DNA of 64,000 nt, taken from the NCBI GenBank assembly GCA_015680905.1, contig CM027377.1, positions 23,584,501 through 23,648,500 on the forward strand, in the 5' to 3' direction. The notes beneath the pieces were generated by a model that made no database searches, was not told where the DNA came from, and saw only the letters and a list, made by a program, of their open reading frames with translations. Source of the stretch: Coptis chinensis (lineage: Eukaryota > Streptophyta > Magnoliopsida > Ranunculales > Ranunculaceae). The translations under genes were made by a program, and so were the position numbers. This document shows, piece after piece, positions 4,995 through 63,640 of the stretch; position 1 is the stretch's first letter, and each line of letters starts with the position of its first letter.

Positions 4995-6477
4995 TGATAA
5001 AACATAAAAAGAAAATTTTCCTACGAAATGAACGATGAAACTCAAAACGTAAGTAAACTAAAACTTATTACGAGTCTATATTTATCAAGTTTTCTACTCT
5101 CAATTCTATCGAAATAGCGTGGAGTAACAAATTCGTTCCACTCCTAGTTCTTTAGCATGGAATGGTTTCATAGTTAACTAATCGGTTTTAAGTCTAATGA
5201 GAGTTTTACGAGGGGGAATTATATTACGATGCAACTACCCACAAGATACAAACTATAATTGATTCAACTACGGAAATACTACGTTGATTCTATAATAAGG
5301 AATTAGGGGGGATTGATTCCACCTTAACTCAACTTAACTCACTAACGACGAATCGTCGTAATCCAAATTGAACTGCTACCTTGAGAACAATTGGTTCTTC
5401 CTAATCCCTAATTACACATGACATTTCTACCAATTCATAACTAGCATGTGAACGATTAAACCCATTCTCATGGCGAATTAATCGTTTCTAGAGTGGAATA
5501 GAAATTACGACGACTCTATGATAATCGGAATCAAGCTTTCATCAAGGCTTCTCAACCCCCTCTAATGGAGGTTTAGCCGAGAATCATTCCGCAATCATTT
5601 CCATATGAATCTAAACAAAACATAATATCAAGATTTGAAATTTACTAATCTAAATTAAACAATAATTAAAATCTAATTAACAACTAAGGAATGGTAACCA
5701 ACAATAATTAAAACTAGATCTAATAGATTGAAATAACAAAAATCGAAATGACAAGAAGAATAACTATTTTATTTATTTAATGAATGATATTCAATAATTC
5801 AAGAAATTAATCTAAAACAAGAAATGAAATTCTAAAACTAAGTTCTAAAACTCATTAGTGGAGGCTAACTAATCTCCTTCTAATCTAGGTCTAACTATCT
5901 ACCATTAACAAAGAGCTAAGCTTTTGTTTTTATACTTTCAGATCCAAAAATCGTGCATGGGCTTGGAGCCATGTTTTGGGCCAGAGAATCAGGCCCAAAA
6001 CCCAATTTCTTTAGTCCAAAATGGGCTCTTCAGCTGCAGTTGGCTTCGACAGATGTTTCGTCCACTTCTGCTCCTCTGATTGGGTCAAGGATTGGACCAT
6101 TGGAAAGCTCTTTCCGAGTCGGTCGTTTTGACATAAGGTAGGCCCAATTCCGAGGTCTGAGTCTAAAGATATGATCTTCGGAAGTTCTGCTGACTTTGTG
6201 TGCTGTTTCTGCCCGCGTTGACTTTGACTTTTCAGCTTTGACCAGGCTTTAGAAAGGCTTTGTCTTCTTGAATCTTGGCCTTTAATCATAGAACTCCTTA
6301 GCAACCAACCATTGCTCCTTTATCTCGCTAAAGTGGCACATTTCTGCACATAATGGACTTTGAAGCCTGAAATGCATAAAAATACGTAATCAGTATTAAC
6401 TCTTACTTATTATTCACATAATTGGTCTAAAAGTATGATTATTAAGGGGTTAAAACTACAGTTTTGGGCTCTTATCA
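4995..6477 (-). repeat. LTR of the Athila-like element (3' LTR in element orientation)
   Basis: Direct near-copy of 13643-15114, 1483 bases, beginning TGATAAAACATAAAAAG and ending GGGCTCTTATCA on the plus strand. Open frames inside it (5953-6141, 6011-6304) are shared, with changes, by the other LTR and are not regarded as genes. Confidence 0.9.
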
Positions 6478-6489
6478 ACCACCCCCAAA
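6478..6489 (-). other. Polypurine tract of the Athila-like element
   Basis: On the minus strand TTTGGGGGTGGT directly abuts the LTR start TGATAAGAGCCC, the expected place for the plus-strand primer of reverse transcription. Confidence 0.7.
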
Positions 6490-13642: not shown

Positions 13643-15114
13643 TGATAAAACATAAAAAGATAATTTTCCTACGAAATGAACGATGAAACTCAAAACGTAA
13701 GTAAACTAAAACTTATTACGAGTCTATATTTATCAAGTTTTCTACTCTCAATTCTATCAAAATAGAGTGGAGTAACAAATTCGTTCTACTCCTAGTTCTC
13801 TAGCATAGAATGGTTTCATAGTTAACTAATCGGTCTTAAGTCTAATGAGAGTTTTACGAGGGGGAATTATACTACGATGCAACTACCCACAAGATACAAA
13901 CTATAATTGATTCAACTACGGAAATACTACGTTGATTCTATAATAAGGAATTAGGGGGGATTGATTCCACCTTAACTCAACTTAACGACGAATCGTCGTA
14001 ATCCGAATTGAACTGCTACGCAGAACAATTGGTTCTTCCTAATCCCTAATTACACATGACATTTCTACCAATTCATAACTAGCATGTGAATGATTAAACC
14101 CATTCTCATGGCGAATTAATCGTTTCTAGAGTGGAATAGAAATTACGACGACTCTACGATAATCGGAATCAAGCTTTCATCAAGACTTCTCAACCCTCTA
14201 ATGGAGGTTTAGCGAGAATCATTCATAATCATTTCCATATGAATCTAAACTAAACATAATATTAAGATTCGAAATTTACTAATCTAAATTAAACAATAAT
14301 TAAAATCTAATTAACAACTAAGAAATGGTAACCAACAATAATTAAAACTAGATCTAATAGATTGAAATAACAAAAATCGAAATGACAAGAATAATAACTA
14401 TTTTATTTATCTAATGAATGATATTCAATGATTCAAGAAATTAATCTAAAACAAGAAATGAAATTCTAAAACTAAGTTCTAAAACTCATTAGTGGAGGCT
14501 AACTAATCTCCTTCTAATCTAGGTCTAACTATCTACCATTAACAAAGAGCTAAGCTTTTGTTTTTATACTTTCAAATCCAAAAATCGTGCATGGGCTTGG
14601 AGCCATGTTTTGGGCCAGAGAATCAGGCCCAAAACCCAATTTCTTTAGTCCAAAATGGGCTCTTCAGCTGTAGTTGGCTTTGACAGATGTTTTGTCCACT
14701 TATGCTCCTCTGATTGGGTCAAGGATTAGACCGTTGGAAAGCTCTTTCCGAGCCGGTCGTTTTGACATAAGGTAGGCCCAATTCCGAGGTCTGAGTCCAA
14801 AAATATGGTCTTGGAAGTTTCTGGCGACTTTGTGTCTTTGTTTACGCCCGCGTTGACTTTGACTTTTCAGCTTTGACCGGGCTTTAGAAAGGCTTTGTCT
14901 TCTTGAATCTTGGCCTTTAATCACAGAACTCCTTAGCAACCAACCATTGCTCCTTTATCTCGCTAAAGTGGCACATTTCTGCACATAATGGACTTTGAAG
15001 CCTGAAATGCATAAAAACACGTAATCAGTATATTAACTCTTACTTATTATTCACATAATTGGTCTAAAAGTATGATTATTAAGGGGTTAAAACTACAGTT
15101 TTGAGCTCTTATCA
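13643..15114 (-). repeat. LTR of the Athila-like element (5' LTR in element orientation)
   Basis: Direct near-copy (1472 bases) of 4995-6477 with the same TGATAA...TTATCA ends. Followed by the TSD copy TTTAC at 15115-15119. Confidence 0.9.
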
Positions 15115-15119
15115 TTTAC

Positions 15120-15880
15120 CCAAAATCGAGTTTGACTTCGTCAACAGCCCTCTTAGAGCTTCAACAATACCAAACTCATAACACTTAACATATCCAACTC
15201 AACCAACAACCAATCGAAATCATTCAACAATCAACCTATAGATAATCCAAACATTTCAACAGCTCACACAAATCAATACATATACAGTTAACTATTTTTA
15301 ACAATTACAATTAGACAGGATGATATTCGACAGGCTAATCGACATCCACAGTAGATAAACAATAATCAAAATCAATTAATATTTGACTGGATCGACAGTA
15401 TGTATTCCAATTTTGGCAAACATGTAGAATAAGCACAGAACAAGCAGAAAAATTTATGAGCAGTGACAGAAGTTCGTAAAATTTTTAAATATTTAAAAAG
15501 ACTATTAGTAACGAAAAATCTATGAGTTCAATGAAAAGATAAAAATATATACTTACTTATTATACGCTCTATCAGTATCTCCAGCAAGAAGCCTCCCTTT
15601 TCCTCTCTCAGTAAAACTCTCTTTTTCCTGTGTAAAACTCTCTCTCTGTATTAAAACTCTATGTGTAAACTATTCTACATGTTTTCCCTTTTTTGAAAAC
15701 CCTCGAAAATAGGGAATGGGGTTTATCCTCTTTACCCTATTTCTTTCTAATCTTTATCCTTTTTATTTTTATTTATTTTTATTTTTATTTTTTTTATTTT
15801 TATTTTTATTTTATTGTACTAGTAAATATATATATAAAAAATATAATGAACACCAACAATAAAACAACATTATAGCAACG
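15120..15880 (-). repeat. Giant-LTR retroelement remnant, part 2 (continuation of 3939-4989)
   Basis: Resumes exactly after the TTTAC duplication. On the minus strand 15600-15550 (GAGAGAGTTTTAC, GAGTTTTACTGAGAGAG, then GAGGCTTCTTGCTGG) resembles 37725-37770 of the solo LTR, which I take as the LTR promoter/leader zone. Order and orientation agree with 3939-4989 being the downstream part of the same LTR. The A/T microsatellite at 15755-15815 creates a spurious open frame. Confidence 0.45.
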
Positions 15881-43313: not shown

Positions 43314-44222
43314 GAGGAACGACGAACGAGTGAAGTTTAAAGAAATATTGGAGAGGAGAGAGATTACGTACATTAGAAAGATCGGGGAGAGTTTGAGGAA
43401 ATCAGGAGACAGATCCTTGAGAGTTCGAGGAAACCAGGATTTAGACAGGACATTTGAGGGGTGACAAACAAGTGATTTTTTCTCCCCCAGTGCAAGGACA
43501 CTCTGCTCATTCGATAATTCTTTTCCTTGCGATGAAAACTATTGAAATCATCTCTTGAGAACTTTAATGCAGCTATCTTTGGGGGCATTGAACATCTAGG
43601 AGTTTTCAGCAGATCCTTTCTTTTAGTAAAGCTATCATTTCAATAACCGTTCAATTCCCTATTAAAAGTTCAAAACTACGTTTACAAACTCAATTATTAT
43701 CAAGACAAAATTTCAACACCAAACTAGTAGTAATTCTGGAATACCATATTTACCGCTGGGATTATTATCTCCCGAAAAAAACAAACAATTTAATTTGGAA
43801 CAAAAAACTGCACCGTTTCAGGTTGGACAATTGGAGATAAATTGACGGTTAAGTTAATTAGCAAATATTCAAATCCAACAACTAAAAGTCTAAAACAACA
43901 GTGGATGATTCAAGTCTTGTCTAGAAGTATATAATTGACGTCGATGGCCTGCGCCCTTCATTGTTCAAACTTCAAAGTTCAGACTTCAGACTGGCATAAA
44001 TTGGGCTTCTTCGAAAAATGTATATGCTAGCACATTTCATATTTCCCATACTTAAGGACAAAGATTCGTCGGGACTAACATGGCAAATAAAGTTCTCTCA
44101 CGCGTTATCGAACCATTGATTATTTGATTTCTCGTCAAGATTTACTTACAGAAGTTTTGCACATCTATATCTATTTATCTATATATATATATATATATAT
44201 CAAAGACCATTAATACTGAGTA

Positions 44223-44443
44223 GTTGAGAATGCTCCAGTGACCCACGTCATCCCCCCTTTTTTCTCTCAAAATGACACATCAGATTTTATCTAAAAAAAT
44301 GAATTCTACGCCTTTTTTTGGCGATTTCAATTGTTGAGAATGCTCCCAGTGACCCACGTCAGCCCCCCTTTTTTCTCTCAAAATGACACATCAGATTTTA
44401 TCTAAAAAAATGAATTCTACGCCTTTTTTTGGCGATTTCAATT
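44223..44443 (+). repeat. 110-base tandem duplication
   Basis: GTTGAGAATGCTCC...GGCGATTTCAATT occurs twice in a row (44223-44332, 44333-44443) with only a few differences, just inside the proposed Helitron 5' end. Confidence 0.85.
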
Positions 44444-44697
44444 GTTAGCCCAAAATATATAAAAACCCAAAATAGATAAGTAGATAAAAACCTCTTTCTT
44501 AAATCTTATCTCCATTCTTAAATCTTATCTCCTCTCTTCAAACTTCTCTCTTATTCTTCTCCCCGCAGTAATTAGATGTGTATCAGAAAAGAGTTTAGAT
44601 TCTTACCAACCCAATCCGGTTCCACCAAACCCTTCGAATCAGACCCAGCAGGTGAGATTATTTTTTTATTTAGTTTTCAAATGCATGTTGACCCCAG

Positions 44698-44898
44698 GAC
44701 GATGAGGTGGATGAATCGACAACTCTTCCAGGTTTGACAATATGCTCATCGAGTTTTTATTACCTTTTGGTCTTCTCTCTTTTATTTGTTAGCGGTAAGA
44801 TCTGATACTTGATAAACTTTTGGCGCAGTTCAAATGGCTTTAATATTTTCGCACACGCAAAAATATCCAGATGAACCGCCTCTTTTGAATCTTAAAAG
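44698..44898 (+). pseudogene. Two captured exons of an RWD-domain protein (RWDD1/GIR2-like)
   Basis: Exon 44698-44731 (DDEVDESTTLP) and exon 44829-44898 (VQMALIFSHTQKYPDEPPLL, then NLK) have AG/GT borders and join in frame. The second is the YPDEPP signature of RWD domains. An upstream open stretch ending at a donor (44651) gives DSYQPNPVPPNPSNQTQQ and would also splice in frame. RWDD1/GIR2-type proteins bind DRG GTPases or GCN1. Only the domain's N-terminal part is here. Confidence 0.6.
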
Positions 44899-45241
44899 GT
44901 GGGTATTGTCTTCCTTTTGGATGTCACCATGCAAATATTTTATCAAGCTGGTTCATTGCCCACTTTTCTTTTTAATCTTGAAGATAGTTGCTATATGGGA
45001 TTCTACCCTCGGTTGATTAAGAAAACTACATGTTGCTTTCCCACCTCTTTCACTTGGTTTACAACAAGGTTAATAAATTTGTTTTATTGGAAGTGGTTGC
45101 GTTTATGATTCAATTTGTTTACTTAGTTTTCAATTTTAGAGATAAGCTGAAAATTATGCACTTGACCTTTCGCGACAAAGCATTCTCATGCGGTCACCAA
45201 CTCCTATTTTGTCTGTCTTATTGATGGAATACAATTTTCAG

Positions 45242-45385
45242 GTATTATGCACGGTATTTGGGATTTTTGATGTTTGCGGTTGGTGTTAATTCAAGTGAAA
45301 AAGATTTCATTGAAGCATTCAACCGACCAGGAGTTATTCTTGCTGGATATGTTGGGCAGGATTGTTGTCCTAAAATTTATATGAT
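45242..45385 (+). pseudogene. Captured exon fragment of a BASS-type sodium/metabolite transporter
   Basis: After a TTTTCAG acceptor the sequence reads YYARYLGFLMFAVGVNSSEK, then DFIEAFNRPGVILAGYVGQ. This matches the early membrane segments of plant plastid bile acid:sodium symporter family proteins (BASS). It loses similarity after GQ and stops at 45390, running directly into PPR-like sequence. Confidence 0.5.
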
Positions 45386-45930
45386 GTAGTGACTTTTGGT
45401 GTATCTGAATGCAGATTTACTCCAAGCTATGCCACTATGAGAGGCTTCTCTCCAATCACTATGCCTGTGAAACAAGCCGTCTACATCTGTGGGCATGTTG
45501 GAAGGAAAATGTCTAGCTATACCTATGATGCTGTGTCGCAGTTACCATCTAAATCTCACAGATTCTCTGTTGTAGTGACTTTTGGTGTATCTGAATGCAG
45601 ATTTACTCCAAGCTATGCCACTATGAGAGGCTTCTCTCCAATCACTATGCCTGTGAAACAAGCCGTCTACATCTGTGGGCATGTTGGAAGGAAAATGTCT
45701 AGCTATACCTATGATGCCGTGGTCGCAGGTTACCATCTAAATCTCACAAATTCTCTCGTCGCATGCGGGGAATGATGCTATTAGAATTTTCCGTGAAATG
45801 ATGGAGCCACGAGTTCATGCCAAACGTGATAACTTCTGAGAATGGCAATGCATTCATGGTACGTTTGCCAAATCCATGTTGAAGATGGGAGCAATAGAAG
45901 TACTCTTTGGAAATGCAGGGGAAATAAGGA
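45386..45930 (+). pseudogene. PPR (PLS-class) gene fragment with a 186-base tandem duplication
   Basis: Two copies of a 186-base unit (from 45386 and from 45572) keep one open frame of 128 codons (45389-45775) with TMRGFSPITMPVKQ and CGHVGR. In another frame the sequence continues with DAIRIFREMMEPRVHAK, then CIHGTFAKSMLKMG, wording typical of plant PLS-class pentatricopeptide repeat proteins, which edit or process organelle RNA. Too degenerate to be functional. Confidence 0.5.
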
Positions 45931-46203
45931 ACAAATTCTGAATTTGAACATTTGAAAAGAGGAGAGAGAGGACCAAATATTGAAGTAGAAGCTAGCCATG
46001 TTCCGTGTATCTTTGGATGGGGTTTCAAAATTTTCTACTTTAGATCGGTGGACACCGTGATAAAGAAATGACAAAACATTGAAATGGTGGCTATGAGAAT
46101 CGATAATTGGATCTACTTTCACTTTTTTTTTTTACTAAATTGGTTTGGTCATTACTGCGGATGTTAGTAAGAGAGAGAAAGTGAAGTAAATAATTCGGTG
46201 ACT

Positions 46204-46870
46204 TTAGGTGATGACAAGAGGCGGAGTACGGTGATCGGACTTCGATTCGATGTCAAGCTTTGTATTAGATATCACCGCATGAGATGAGGTAGTTGTATGC
46301 AAGCCCATCTCTTTTAAAGCGAGTTCTCCTCGATTTCTTGTGGTGGCAATTTGCTTTGTCGGTGAGACCGGCTTTAATATATAAATTGGCCATTGTAGCA
46401 TATGTGCTCCGGTCCATTGAGATATGAGATTGACTCTCCATTTCTACAAGAACTTTCTCCATTTCATCAATATTAGATCTCGCCCCATAAGAATTGATGC
46501 ATATTATCAGAATCGAAGTTATGCGGGGCGACACCATTTTCCTTCATTTCATTTAACAGGGCCGGGGACCTTTTTATACTCACCGGTGTTTGTGTAGAGA
46601 CACATGAGGTCATTGTAGTAGAGAGGAGTTGAAGCAAAACCATTTTCTTTCATTTTCTGCAGATGGGACACGGATTTATCGGTTAGGCTGCTCGACATAA
46701 CAATTCAAGAGGCGCCATAAGTTTTATCAATTTTGTCTTCGCCGCTCAAACTATTGAAAGTAGCTCGTGAGAATCCAAACCTCGAACTCTTCCAATCAGA
46801 TCTAAGCTGCAGAGCACGTTCCCTCGATGAAAATGTGCACTCAACTTTCTTTTCCATCCATTCGAAACCC
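46204..46870 (-). pseudogene. P-class PPR gene fragment (At4g21705-like)
   Basis: On the minus strand, across several frames: LTDKSVSHLQKMKENGFAST, then PLYYNDLMCLYTNTGEYKKV, then CINSYGARSNIDEMEKVLVE, MDRSTYATMANLYIKAGLTD, and finally RDGLAYNYLIS. This order matches mitochondrial P-class PPR proteins of the At4g21705 group. Several frame changes and stops. It lies opposite in orientation to the other fragments in the same element. Confidence 0.65.
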
Positions 46871-47287
46871 GAGGAACAATGTAACCATGCGAAAAGGTCA
46901 TGTTAAAAGTAACTTAAAATATATCAAATGAATAATTAAACAAGAAAACAATAGTATAGCTACTAACATGAGTGCAGCGTTCTAACTTATCTCACACTCT
47001 CGTATGGATGACTCTCTCTTTTTCTGACCATAGACTAACAGTCTTGAGCACTTTTATCAATTTTTTTGTCGGCACCTTACATGGGACCACAGAAAAAAAA
47101 CTTTGCTTTTGGGGTTTCACCCAAAGAGCTAGCTACTTATTTCCTTTTCGTGCCAACAACAAAGCGGAATCTTGTGAAAGACTCTCGAGAGACTTGTTTT
47201 TACCCATTAACACACATATAACATTGCGCATCTGAAGACTTGGAATGTCTTTCCCTTACCCGACTTGCCTCATGTTGATGCTAGACC

Positions 47288-47470
47288 CATAGTTCGTGAT
47301 TCCGAACGAAACTCCGGAATTCCGCCCGAAATTTTGGTTTTTCAAAAAAACAGAATTCCGAATATAGAGTCGAAATATCCGAAATTCCGAATATAACAAG
47401 AGTCGAAATTTAATGAATTTCGGTTTTTGAATTTGTCGGAATTTCAAAAATTCCGAAATTCCGAACTATG
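47288..47470. mobile_element. hAT-like MITE with 8-bp target duplication
   Basis: 183 bases bounded by CATAGTTCG... and ...CGAACTATG. Perfect 8-bp duplication GCTAGACC at 47280-47287 and 47471-47478. The interior is full of short TTCGGAATT-type repeats. Inserted into the gene-fragment Helitron. Confidence 0.75.
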
Positions 47471-47776
47471 GCTAGACCTATTGGTAATTGGAGAGGGTGT
47501 TTCGGCAATTGAATTTGACCAAAGCAGAAGAAGCATGTATGTGACCATACTCTCCCTCCATGTTGCAGGACATGAATGAATACTTAAATAATATATATAA
47601 GTGATGTACGAACCAACTGGAATAGCATAGACCCTCGAAAGATGCGTACTTTTAGTCACTCTTTTGTTGGCTTCCAAAACTAAAATGATATGTTGATAAT
47701 GAAGTCCGGATAATGATAGGCTGCTTCATCTCATTTTGATTATTACCGTGGGGGAGGAGATTTTTGTCATGCTTTC

Positions 47777-47966
47777 TAAGAATGAGCTCCTTTTATTTTG
47801 CGGTGTCCTTTGTGAAGATGAAAAACAAGCGGTTCTTTGTGAAGAGTCAATTGCAACACGACTTGCGGACCTATGTACGACAAGAACCCTTGTCCATGGT
47901 GCTCTTATTGTGTCAACCATCCTTAGTAGTCCGGACTTAAAGAGCACGTGGCTGAAGGAAGTCAAG
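47777..47966 (+). pseudogene. Captured fragment of aspartate aminotransferase
   Basis: Reads SKNELLLFCGVLCEDEKQAV, then in an alternate frame VKSQLQ, then back to VHGALIVSTILSSPDLKSTW and LKEVK, ending at a GTAACC donor. This is the C-terminal half of a plant (mitochondrial-type) aspartate aminotransferase just before MADRI. Two compensating frameshifts near 47840-47895 break the invariant PMYSNPP segment. The enzyme interconverts aspartate and 2-oxoglutarate with oxaloacetate and glutamate; this piece cannot. Confidence 0.6.
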
Positions 47967-49202
47967 GTAACCCCTAAGTTCTAAGCGGTTCACAATATTA
48001 TCTTAAATTCTTAATTGTTAACTATGATATTTTTTCTCAAGTGCAGTGAACATAAGCTGTTCTATTCACCTTTTAAGGATTAAATTTGGAATTTGGTCTA
48101 ACGTGTCCCTTGACAATGAGCTCATAGATGTTTTGATATTTGGAAATATAAATTGCTTTTGTCATGTTACTACCTACTTGATATCAAATTGCGGGTTAAG
48201 TTCTTAATTCGACATTCAAAATAAAAACAATCTTTTCTCTACAGCAAAATGTGACATTAAAGGATTTAAATCCATGTGTTGAAATTCACTATGGTATCCC
48301 ATCCATTTGCATCAATTCTTGCTTTTGATCATTTTCAAATGACTCTTGGCTATTGGGACCTTTGTAAGTTTTTTTTTTTTAAATATTGTGTGTATGAAAT
48401 GTTTTACTTATTAGGCTATTACTAACTATTATTAAGTTAAGTATGCATATCCATAAAATATATGATATATCCGTCATCTTCTTTCTCGTGGTGCATTGAG
48501 TCGACTCTCTTGCATCCATGACCCTATTTGCACCGTCGGTTCTTGTTTATACGTTTAAATTTTAAACTTGGATATTACATGTTTGTTCATTTGATGCTTT
48601 TGCTTCTTTACATTTCTTAGTTTCAATATGTTACAAGATTTCATGGTTTTATGTAATGATAGATGATGCAAAAGGATCGATATCATGTTGGAAGGCGATA
48701 GTCGCGATTACTAGAAAGAGGTAGCACAAAATGCGAAATAGTTTCTTGCGAGTCTTCTTAATTAGTTATTATTTTCCTGCATATCTTTAAGCCTCTTCGT
48801 TGTTGAATTGATCATAGTCTCATTGAAAATGTGGATCCATCCACCGTGAATCGCGCGGTATAAAGATTTGTTCGATCGATAAACATTGGATTTGTATTAT
48901 AATTTCGGATTCTCGAATCGCCGATTGCCATAATCGGGTAAACATTCTAAAGGTAGAATCATGGATTTGTAAGGAAACCGGTTCAATTATTTATGTTTGT
49001 CCACTTTAAACTATATTATTTTCAAGCTGGCTTTGGACATAGACATGGCCGACTCATATTGTTTGCAAGATAAGGAACAAATTCTTTTGATACCTTAACC
49101 TTAGGTTCATCAAAGCTGCTTTGCTCCCCTTAGAGAGGGTGTTTTACAAAGTTTTTGTGTAGCTCTAACAAGAAAAATTATCGTAAAAGAAAATTGAAAG
49201 TA

Positions 49203-49427
49203 AGGATGGTATATGTCACAGATTGCTCTAAGGCATTTGTTATCTCACTTCATATTACGTGTACGACATCATTTTTTGCCTTTGATTTTAGGTCAAGCTT
49301 AACTCTTCTCTTATGGGTTTGTTTGGCCTTTCACTTTGCATTGGTTGTAAGAGCTAGACCCTATACCAAAGTTTCTGATGTGAGGAAGTATGGTGCTGTG
49401 GGCAATTGTAAAATAGACTGCAGCAAG
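49203..49427 (+). pseudogene. First-exon fragment of a polygalacturonase (GH28)
   Basis: A hydrophobic signal-like stretch (SSLTLLLWVCLAFHFALVV) is followed by VSDVRKYGAVGNCKIDCSK and a GT donor at 49428. VxxYGAVGDGxxD is the start of the plant pectin-degrading GH28 polygalacturonase fold; here GNCKIDCSK is a decayed form. No further GH28 exon follows. Confidence 0.45.
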
Positions 49428-50010
49428 GTTAGTAGTTTTTTACTCTATTTCTTTTACTTTTTCGTTTCATTGAGTGCTGGAAGCCTAGAACCCAGGTAGG
49501 CACTCACCCCTGTTTGGGTAAGGCCCAAGATTTTTGCCCTACAAGTTAGGGGAAATACTATAAGACCTTCAAGGATTATACCTACAAAATCGCATTTTAT
49601 GTGTTCTGTGTTATATATTAGGCCTTTGTAAACTGATTATGCTATATACTACTCATGGTGGGTATGTTTACGTATATAGCCAACTAGGTTTTGCAGCTTA
49701 CTACTACAAGGCTTGGTTAATATTGATGAAGGGACTATTACTCTCATAGGTATCATTGCATAGTGGTTGGTAATATTTTATTTTGATCCATGATTATTGT
49801 AAATAGTAATTATAGAATACCGTGTTGAACAGTGTAATGGTTTTGTCAATTATTAATCCTGATGAGGCTGTTGCTTATCTCTTTAAAAAAAAATAGAAAA
49901 ACATAAACTCTTCAAACAAAGTATGCAATTAATCATTAGCTATCAATATACATATATTATTTATTCAAGTGGACTTTAGGCTTTTGAGTCATTAGCTATT
50001 TATGTAGTAA

Positions 50011-50040
50011 GTCCGGCCATAGGCCGGGCCAAATGGCTAG
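50011..50040 (+). other. Helitron 3' terminus: hairpin plus CTAG
   Basis: GTCCGGCC, loop ATA, GGCCGGGC forms an 8-bp stem (one G-T pair), then AAATGG and CTAG. This is the diagnostic Helitron 3' structure. Confidence 0.8.
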
Positions 50041-50273
50041 TATCTATATAAAAGCTCGCTATTTTCCAAACCGTGCATTCTCATTCACTCCTAAAAAATA
50101 GGCAACTCTATATATTAGTTTGACCTCCCTAGATTTGCTATTTTCTCCTTCTTTTATTCTTTATTTATTTGGTTCTCCTAATCTCTTTTAAAACGAATCC
50201 TAATAAAATAAAAGTCCTAAAAACTACTAAACCAAATTCTTAAAATACTAAACGAGGATGAAAAGATCAAAGT

Positions 50274-51320
50274 TTGCCAGAAGAGATCACCATCCGTTGT
50301 CTGCTATGTTCTTTCACTACTTTTGCTTCATTATATCAAGGCAAACAGGTTCATGCATATGCTCTTAAGATGGGTCTGGACGTTGATGTCCCTGTATGCA
50401 ACACTCTCATTACCATGTACACAAACTGTTTGGATCTCTCTGCTGCATTCAATATCTTTGACGAGATGACTAGTAATCTGGATTCAGTTTCTTGGAATGC
50501 AATTCTAACAGCATGTCTGCGTCACAACCAGCCCAATGACACTTGCTAATTCCTAAAACTAATGCATACTTCTGAATATAAGATTGATCATATAACACTG
50601 GCAATGGATTAAAAGCGGATTTGATGCAGACACTTCGGTTAGCGGATGCTCACAAATATTTTGAATTAATGACTCATCCTGACGTCATCTCTTGGAGTAC
50701 TTTGATTGTGGGGTATGCGCAGTTCGGCTATGGGGAGGAAGCTCTCAAACTTTTTGAAACAATGAGAAGTGCAGGTATCAAGCCAAACAATGTCACCTTT
50801 GTTGGGGTTCTCTCGCGCTGACCATGTTGGATTGGTAGAGGAAGGGTGCAATTACTACAAAATCATGGAGTCCGACTATGGGATTAGACCTACAAGGGAA
50901 CACTTGTTGTTGTGTGGTTGACATGCTTGCCCATCTTTGGGAGTCCGAAGGAAGCCGAGAACTTATCGGTCAAATGTTATTTGATCGACATTGTGGTGTT
51001 TAAAACTCGCTTAAAGCATGTCGAAACCGTGGGGATGTAGAGGTTGCAAAGCGTCAGCAGATAGTGTATGGAAGCTGGATCCGTCGATTCAGCATCTCAT
51101 GTGTTACTCGGCAACATCCTTGCATCGACGGGTAATTGGGGTGAGGTCGCCAGAGTAAGGAGATTAATGCTGGCAGAGGTGTTAGGAAGGTTCCCGCCAA
51201 AGCCGGATAGATGTTAAGAATCGAGTCAATGTATTTTCAAGACAAGACGTAGAAAACATACAAATATGGACCGGATATATTCAAGATCTTGGAAGGTTTA
51301 TATTTGGAGATGGAAGCTAA
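50274..51320 (+). pseudogene. PLS-class PPR gene fragment (At3g53360-like)
   Basis: Open 50274-50549: GKQVHAYALKMGLDVDVPVC, then DSVSWNAILTACLRHNQP. After stops and a deletion, 50621-50821 reads HPDVISWSTLIVGYAQFGYG and EEALKLFETMRSAGIKPNNV. It continues out of frame with HVGLVEEGCNYYKIMES, GIRPTREH, then GNWGEVARVRRLM and ILEGLYLEMEANC from the E/E+ region. It matches a mitochondrial PLS-class PPR protein of the At3g53360 type. Many stops; not functional. Confidence 0.7.
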
Positions 51321-51856
51321 TTGTAGTCTTGAGGAAAAAGTTGCCTCGGCTAAAAGCACTTCACAAATAGAACCAACAACCCGATACTACCTTATTTAAA
51401 TATATCAATACCGGGATCTCATATTTGCCTATTTACATGAAGTCCGCCTATGTCTTGCTCCATTGAAAGTGGGTGGACTCTGCCAGAGAAGAGAGTTGAG
51501 AAATTAACAAAACAAGCTGTAAAGAATGTGTGGGAGACAGATAGAGATGAATGTCTCAAGGGTCCCATGGCTCCTCAGACAGTGTTTCGACTTCAGGGTT
51601 AGTAGGAGCCCTGGAGTACTAAAAATTTGAGAACATATCTAATCGGTAAAGTTTGGTCTAAATTAAAGCCATCCCATCGAACCGGCTTATACTGAAAAGA
51701 GCACAAAATACACATCCAAATTAATAATAAAATGTGAATGCCACGACTTTGTTGGTTCAGCTTTTCCACGTACAAAGTGGAGTTGTTCTGTACAATGGGA
51801 AAGCAGAAATCCCACCAATTAACATGAAAGATCAAGCACTCCCACAAAACACATAC

Positions 51857-52104
51857 CTTGGCAAGGCCGGTTGGCTCTCATCTTTTTGATGTTCCCACGA
51901 CTTACACTCTTGAGAAATGTCGAGGAAGCCAACTTTGGTATGGCATCATTGGAAGAAACAAATAGAGCTATCTGCATACATGTAAAAACATTGTCCGACT
52001 ATTGGACAAATCAAACGACAAGTGCATAAAAAGATAAAAAGAAAGCATCAAAGGCGGGATATGGAGAATCTCACGGTTTTGTACTCAGCAATGTTCCCTG
52101 AGGC
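51857..52104 (-). pseudogene. Two exon-like pieces of an unidentified gene
   Basis: On the minus strand a small exon 52104-52075 (ASGNIAEYKT, donor GTGAGA) would splice in frame to 51971-51857 (IALFVSSNDAIPKLASSTFL, then KSVSRGNIKKMRANRP; acceptor TGCAG, donor GTATGT). Clean borders and protein-like content suggest captured host exons. I do not recognise the gene. Confidence 0.35.
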
Positions 52105-52649
52105 CTAGATCTCAACATACAAGGCCATAACCTCAATTTCACACAACAAGGCTCATAAGGTTTTAACCTTGATTCAAAATCATAGAGTACCCCCAATGAA
52201 TTTTTTATGCACCAAAAGGACCTTAACAGAAAATCTAAATCAATGTCCCTTTCATTTAAGGAAGCTTATATGCTCCAAAAAAATTGATAATTTCTAATCT
52301 TGAAGACGAGCTGATAAATTTAAAGGAATGATGTCAACCGGACCACCCAAATTATATGGGATGTTGATGTAACTGAGAACCCATGACCCCATACCTCAAT
52401 AAGACTTAAAAGGTAATCATGGTGATAAGTTAAACTAACATTTCAAAATGCAGAGTAGCAAATTACAGGTATTTGGTTATAGTCAATTGTCACATCTATT
52501 TAACCAAAACGTAGAGTGGTTGCACATCATATCTGTCACAAGGTATTGTAGAATCTACAGACCAATTGGATCTTCACGTGACTAGATGAATAAAAACACG
52601 CAAGACCAACATTAAGAGTTTTTAGAAAGTTGAGTTTGATATAAGAAGT

Positions 52650-52839
52650 TGAGTTTTTGGTTTAGTAGGTTTTAGGAATTCAAAATCTAACTCAGCTGCT
52701 AGGTTTGACAGTTTTAAGAAATAAGAAGTGGAGTTTTTGGTTTATTAGGTTTTAGGAATTTTGTTTTATTAGGATTCGTAGAGTTTTAAGAAATAAGAAG
52801 TTAAGTTTGTACGTGTGTTTTGGAACCTGTAATAATTGA
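52650..52839 (-). repeat. Inverted, diverged copy of the Helitron 5' region
   Basis: The reverse complement contains ACGAATCCTAATAAAACAAA, TCCTAAAACCTAATAAACCA and TTCCAAAACACACGTAC, in the order and spacing found at 50043-50255 (CGAATCCTAATAAAATAAAA, TCCTAAAAACTACTAAACCA, TTCCAAACCGTGC). The outer end would be A|TCAATTATTACAGG at 52839. A 100-base internal duplication (GAGTTTTTGGTTTAGTAGG units) is also present. Confidence 0.45.
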
Positions 52840-62921: not shown

Positions 62922-63640
62922 CTTACAACTGGCAGCAAGTATGAATACGACACAAATCACACCTGAATGTCCAACTTTATCAGACTCGGACACAAAATTA
63001 TAACCAACATAATCTCTAACTAAATCTTACAGTAAGACTATATTATTGTTAATGTTTTTTTTAGGACTCTATTACTATTAATGTTTATCTGTTCAACAGA
63101 ATCTCTAACTAAATCTTACAATTTTAATAGGACTCTATTACTGCTTACAACTGGCAGCAAGTATGAATACGACACAAATCACACCTGAATGTCCTACTTT
63201 ATCAGACTCGGACACAAAATTATAACCAACAGAATCTCTAACTAAATCTTACAGTAAGACTCTATTATTGTTAATGTTTTTTTTAGGACTATTACTATTA
63301 ATGTTTATCTGTTCAACAGAATCTCTAACTAAATCTTACAATTTTAATACGACTCTATTACTACTTATAACTGGCAGCAAGTATGAATACGGCATAAATC
63401 ACACCTGAATGTCCAACTTTATCAGACTCGGACACAAAATTATAACCAACAGAATCTCTAACTAAATCTTATAGTCAGACTCTATTATTGTTAATGTTTT
63501 TTTTTAGGACTCTATTACTATTAATGTTTATCTGTTCAACAAAATCTCTAACTAAATCTTTCAACTTTAATAGGACTCTATTACTGTTAATGTTGTTTTT
63601 TAGAACTCTATTACTATTAATGTTTATCTGTTTTTCTACT
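62922..63640 (+). repeat. Minisatellite: three ~221-base tandem units
   Basis: Units beginning CTTACAACTGGCAGCAAGTA start at 62922, 63144 and 63364, each continuing through CACACCTGAATGTCC and TAACTAAATCTTACA-type subrepeats and ending TAGGACTCTATTACT. The third is partial. Such arrays are common near Helitron 3' ends. Confidence 0.85.

Follow-up and report, generated by a model that had tools for sequence, protein, structure and literature searches.

Helitrons are mobilised by a Rep/helicase that peels one strand of the element from the 5' TC to the 3' hairpin and CTAG, and the strand is pasted between an A and a T with no target duplication. Some 10 nt ahead of their 3' end lies a short G+C-rich hairpin. 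Pack-TYPE TIR transposons, by comparison, have terminal inverted repeats and target-site duplications. Capture by Helitrons is treated as established in the parts of a 2026 review considered here (PMC13317346). In the sections consulted of the maize helA study, elements hold 0–12 captured fragments with a mean of 3; fragments are gained in steps and can be lost from the interior, and multiple termini occur (Dong et al. 2011, PMC3288121). Host gene fragments are also found inside the Helitron-type sequences of Lolium perenne, there from one gene, GIGANTEA, going by the title of the report (PMC2702305), and shuffled host coding DNA forms the cargo of Pack-TYPE TIR transposons in the portion of that account used here (PMC8903248).

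The window, the whole stretch of 64,000 nt analysed here (C1:23584501-23648500), comes from a 935.6-Mb genome made up of 116 contigs, and its gene content points to a plant host. It contains a block that is almost certainly a non-autonomous Helitron, a single copy from a large family whose gene pieces were acquired over several rounds (Table 1). To the extent that the maize account was covered, the element resembles helA in its CTAG 3' end, in holding pieces from genes on different chromosomes, in the subsets common to siblings, in internal losses and in extra internal termini (PMC3288121). It differs in belonging to another plant and apparently to a different end family. Compared with the one gene named in the Lolium title, four donor places on three contigs are represented here. 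Capture of this kind is familiar from maize. The fragment count is within the range given there (0–12), so the earlier note's "uncommon, rich example" was overstated in number.

Table 1 Features of the Helitron at 44200-50040, in window coordinates
Feature	Position	Strand	Details
Non-autonomous Helitron	44200..50040	+	5,841 bp, 5'-TC...CTAG-3', between A (44199) and T (50041)
5' terminal region common to family	44200..44565	+	Contains 111-bp tandem duplication, 44223-44446
BASS piece 1	44566..44693	+	Exon end and start of next intron; 123/125 aligned bases identical to L052 (C3)
RWD piece	44695..45037	+	Two exons, intron parts; 337/342 aligned bases identical to C5:96089963-96090339
BASS piece 2	45037..45359	+	Intron and exon; 307/320 aligned bases identical to L052 (C3)
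Piece X	45360..45757	+	Tandem duplicate, 186-bp period; about 90% alike to C5:92340776
Second PPR, degenerate (possible)	45766..45936	+	PPR_2 E 0.0016 on L031 copy
P-type PPR piece	46268..46913	-	Frame breaks; outer parts by eye
MITE-like insertion	47288..47470		183 bp, 9-bp inverted ends CATAGTTCG/CGAACTATG
Aspartate aminotransferase exon	47763..47966	+	Partly out of frame in the window
Polygalacturonase-like first exon and intron start	49290..49576	+	273/287 aligned bases identical to C4:50238517 (L055)
3' terminal region common to family	49877..50040	+	
3' hairpin	50013..50027	+	6-bp G+C stem, loop ATA, 9 nt before CTAG

Termini and insertion site

A search for other copies with the same ends, as proposed in the earlier note, returned at least 40 genome matches to the last 80 bases (49961-50040), the window counted, all of them 98–100% identical (40 scored of 643 candidates). 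Set against the window, 16 further plus-strand loci were 96–100% identical over the last 50 bases but only 16–48% over the 50 bases past CTAG; for 13 minus-strand loci, the comparison of the flanks behind the 3' end was made by eye. Homology among copies stops at CTAG/T, with T as the next base in all 30 of the fetched loci including the window's own (L003), and the exact 3' boundary is 50040. The short G+C-rich hairpin close to this end folded with z = -2.46 (equal or better fold in 2 of 200 shuffles). With up to 3 mismatches allowed, a scan of both strands finds the 30-base 3' end pattern just once in the window. The block had thus been given its correct right-hand limit, a hairpin plus CTAG, from the outset.

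The same search at the left end (query 44150-44340) gave at least 43 genome matches (40 scored of 1,218 candidates), and 28 of the 43 start at 44198-44201 (query 49-52); among the remainder, some extend left into a TA-rich stretch and others come from the window or its tandem copy. Exact 5' ends, the window included, read A followed by TCAAAGACC in 10 of 10 cases. Across the window stretch and 20 long loci (21 rows), there were 10 exact copies of TCAAAGACCATTAATA, each with A before it, and 11 rows had no exact 5' match; both family ends, in order, were found by exact match in 10 of the 21 rows. The start proposed earlier, TCTATATATA at 44178, was rejected, as copies begin at about 44200, and the true 5' end is 22 bp further in, at 44200. 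The element therefore opens with TC after an A and closes with the CTRR motif, here CTAG, before a T. Rfam gave 0 matches in the window at gathering scores.

The insertion event can be read in a sibling (L046), where a Helitron on the opposite strand splits a repeat copy that is unbroken in the window at 50060-50179. The repeat reads ...AAAAAA on one side of that Helitron and TAAGGC on the other, and the flank join ...AAAAAA/TAAGGCAACTC, set against the window's ...AAAAAATAGGCAACTC, gives an A^T site with no duplication. For the window element itself, the joined flanks had several matches over 50–56 nt at about 91% identity, half of that length being (TA)n (for example, C6:72000831-72000886), as is the left half of its own joined site, so that they are weak evidence for an empty site. 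A left-flank look-alike at C1:24006137-24009504 (L056) diverges ahead of the insertion point and gives no empty-site verdict either way.

On the right, the element adjoins another repeat 18 bp away, the flank entering a different repeat family at 50059/50060 (at least 45 matches, 40 scored of 145 candidates). TCTATATAAAAGCTCGC at 50043 was considered as a second Helitron start and is unsupported, copies of that repeat mostly aligning from 50059/50060; the joined-flank matches point to the TCTATATAAAAGCTCG stretch as part of this repeat or of one beside it. A PPR piece at 50262-51230 is outside the Helitron, within another repeat. At two places on C2, the Helitron 3' end and the same 19-base spacer stand 29 bases before the same right-flank repeat, which might reflect either another insertion into this TA-rich target or the copying of 3' end and repeat together.

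Captured pieces and their donors

As in gene-capturing Helitrons, the interior holds pieces from unlinked host genes with introns kept. The best donors of the traced pieces lie on C3 (BASS), C5 (RWD) and C4 (minus-strand PPR and polygalacturonase-like exon), the window being on C1, so that these pieces are not syntenic remains of neighbouring genes. The BASS-type transporter protein piece had 8 genome matches. In the window it scores under the family cut-off (Pfam SBF, E 0.0018), and the exons of its donor (L052, read over 5 kb) score 3.8e-33 with the same family; the pieces align to this donor across exon and intron alike.

The RWD piece sits inside the BASS intron and also scores under its family cut-off (Pfam RWD, E 0.0078), improving to 0.00034 with an upstream exon found only in the sibling L031. 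It had six genome matches: the window, two each at L031 (C9) and L042 (C4), and C5:96089963. The first three places are Helitron-borne and the C5 copy stands apart. The C5 match spans 343 bp, and the copy there has 35 bases more than the window's piece. We infer an intact donor gene at this place, where 421 bp were read, as well as at C4:50238517, read over 361 bp. Since introns are present in the pieces, DNA and not mRNA was copied.

The minus-strand PPR piece scores over its family cut-off (Pfam, 8.7e-06). Its segment 46352-46680 had its best match at C4:82308388-82308714, in a 429-aa open frame with 78% amino acid identity, and two further PPR frames (62%) lie within 7 kb; position, open frame and identity are what mark this place as the candidate donor. 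A second, degenerate PPR piece may be present within the block, and Pfam gave no match on its window copy. The aspartate aminotransferase piece matched 3hlm_A at 8.7e-05, and the better preserved copy in L050 matched solved enzymes at 2.1e-15. No donor was found for it among its 38 genome matches, many of which fall within the fetched siblings, or by an aminotransferase family search, whose 9 matches were all long frames, short exons being beyond its reach.

The exon at 49290-49576 may be from a polygalacturonase gene, a name that found no confirmation in Pfam or PDB searches. The exon itself is real and has C4:50238517 as its likely donor: of 12 genome matches, this one has an in-frame ATG directly ahead of the captured part and is unlike the element on both sides. 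Piece X, missed by the earlier note, adds one more captured piece. Its tandem duplication spans 45385-45756, and its 10 genome matches include two in the window and two in L031. It had no Pfam family over cut-off, its C5 relative had no Pfam family, and PDB matches were at chance level only.

The claim of exons from at least six genes thus stands for RWD, BASS, minus-strand PPR and aspartate aminotransferase, with the second PPR weak and the polygalacturonase name unconfirmed. Donor places were located for BASS, RWD, the minus-strand PPR and the polygalacturonase-like exon, and none for the aminotransferase exon. The pieces do occupy both strands, although the P-type PPR is the sole identified piece on the minus strand. 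Intact splice borders, described earlier for many fragments, are seen in the BASS and RWD pieces, and the polygalacturonase-like exon retains its donor site.

Siblings and the order of assembly

Of 20 long loci fetched, 10 were tabled for inner pieces and the other 10 had matches to the terminal regions alone. Among the tabled siblings, the aspartate aminotransferase exon region was present in 7, the minus-strand PPR segment in 6, the polygalacturonase-like exon in 3 and RWD in 2, and the BASS piece was complete in 1 and partial in 1. One of the ten (L049) has in common with the window only 49085-49293 and the 3' end. The window element holds all of these pieces. L031 on C9 has the same piece order from 5' to 3' end, at 92–98% identity per piece; it is without 46109-47992 (a 1,884-bp gap), has the rest and carries a duplication of its own. 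In several siblings, a further 5'-end-like stretch, degenerate in sequence, lies some 410–460 bp ahead of the 3' end. The MITE-like insertion, with an 8-bp duplication GCTAGACC on both flanks (ends and duplication read by eye), is missing from L035, L036, L040, L041, L046 and L050 and is a later change in the window element.

At three joints, both partners could be compared with their donors: a single extra base lies between BASS and RWD, one base is common to both partners at RWD–BASS, and BASS–X is blunt; one partner is identified at each remaining joint. Where the RWD piece stands in the window, 131 bp of BASS intron are missing. In L031, the BASS intron extends to base 2961 of the L052 donor. 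BASS resumes at donor base 2930, so that about 30 bp were lost on RWD insertion. L031 is also fuller by 452 bp at this place, with more BASS intron and the upstream RWD exon, and the BASS–RWD joint of the window is therefore a later deletion joint. The nesting of RWD within BASS implies that BASS was probably captured first.

Stepwise capture and loss, as in maize, fits these data, the siblings carrying different subsets. The lineage would have gained unrelated host-gene DNA, introns included, over several rounds, with template switching or filler-DNA end joining, in the course of replication or repair, as the most likely route. Host DNA may enter the interior of the lineage as filler at breaks in older captures, and not only by reading past the end, a tentative proposal to which we give slightly less than even weight. 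A Rep/helicase protein made elsewhere would move the element: none was seen by eye among frames of at least 180 aa in the 20 long loci, and none of the Helitron_like_N (Rep-type) domain matches in the genome (at least 157; 150 scored of 2,000 candidates) was tied to the ends of the window family. The captured pieces look like passenger pseudogenes.

Besides serial capture, recombination between an L031-like lineage (RWD/BASS) and an L035-like lineage (PPR/AAT) might have contributed part of the mosaic. The complementary subsets across siblings would suit such an origin, as would the second degenerate 5'-end-like stretches, which nested Helitrons could leave. We nevertheless regard it as less likely than not, because L035 matches the window straight through the supposed joint (45928-49576, MITE excepted) and the gap in L031 has the look of a simple deletion. 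It is very improbable that unrelated insertions and gene remains merely lie together here with a Helitron 3' end at their right edge. The MITE-like insertion within the element and the repeat next to it are what such an accumulation would contain, but exact matching finds a single family 5' end and a single 3' end in the stretch, and the recurrence of both ends and the inner order at L031 refutes it in substance. Capture by a TIR transposon of Pack-MULE or CACTA type, with CTAG at the edge by chance, can be practically dismissed, for although gene pieces are also borne by such elements in the part of the literature considered (PMC8903248) and the right-hand repeat carries inverted arms (50193/52736), the 8 inverted pairs of at least 30 nt all lie elsewhere than at 44200/50040, the TC and CTAG ends are not inverted by eye, and the insertion of L046 lacks the duplication that, like inverted ends, marks Pack-TYPE elements. 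Helitron exon capture, as first proposed for this block, is supported, and neither of the outcomes that the earlier note named as refuting it was obtained: same-end copies are plentiful, with homology ending where the element does, and the traced pieces have their donors on other contigs.

Nested capture outside maize

Helitron capture is a known route of exon shuffling, and the general picture is unchanged. The locus offers a compact, traceable case in which four donor places are located, siblings hold subsets of the pieces and one captured piece is nested in the intron of another. This nested capture is the most useful detail, as it opens the order and mechanism of capture to testing outside maize, with the siblings as a natural series in which template switching and end joining could be told apart.

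A second repeat family at the right-hand edge of the Helitron

The Helitron is followed at its right-hand end by a separate repeat family, for which a genome search returned 145 candidates. The repeat has inverted arms of 44 nt and carries a PPR gene piece distinct from the Helitron's own, which matched PPR_2 in two Pfam searches (8.2e-10 and 3.3e-13). It is possibly a second gene-carrying transposon, of a class other than Helitron.

Two places on contig C2 of the same assembly carry the Helitron 3' end followed by the window's spacer, and both lie 29 bases ahead of a copy of the right-hand repeat. Either the same target was reused or the pair was copied jointly.

Features by location
Feature	Location	Remark
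Right-hand repeat	window 50059-52780	begins 18 bp past Helitron end
Inverted arms	window 50193/52736	within right-hand repeat
PPR gene piece	window 50262-51230	within right-hand repeat
3' end and spacer	C2:71625540-71625726	
3' end and spacer	C2:71590576-71590762	
Direct repeats	window 4995-6484 and 13643-15121	8.6 kb apart
Tandem array	window 62922-63585	220-bp period, 3 copies, 95% matches
BASS piece	C7:94816898-94817685	~0.6 kb downstream of family 5' end
Open frame	L034, 5845-7080 (oriented)	5' of family 3' end

Other repeats in the window

The direct repeats (~1.5 kb, 96-98% alike) look like the LTR pair of a young LTR retrotransposon. A tandem array was also observed.

Possible cargo and termini of the Helitron's relatives

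The BASS piece on contig C7 probably marks a further Helitron with BASS cargo. At locus L034, the open frame encodes 412 aa and, judged by eye, looks like an F-box protein; it may lie inside the Helitron there.

Six siblings sharing the family 3' end (L032, L036, L040, L041, L046 and L050) contain a degenerate second 5'-end-like stretch, reading GACCATGAATACTGAGTAGTTGAG and variants, located internally ~410-460 bp upstream of the 3' end. This arrangement resembles the maize multiple-termini Helitrons of PMC3288121.
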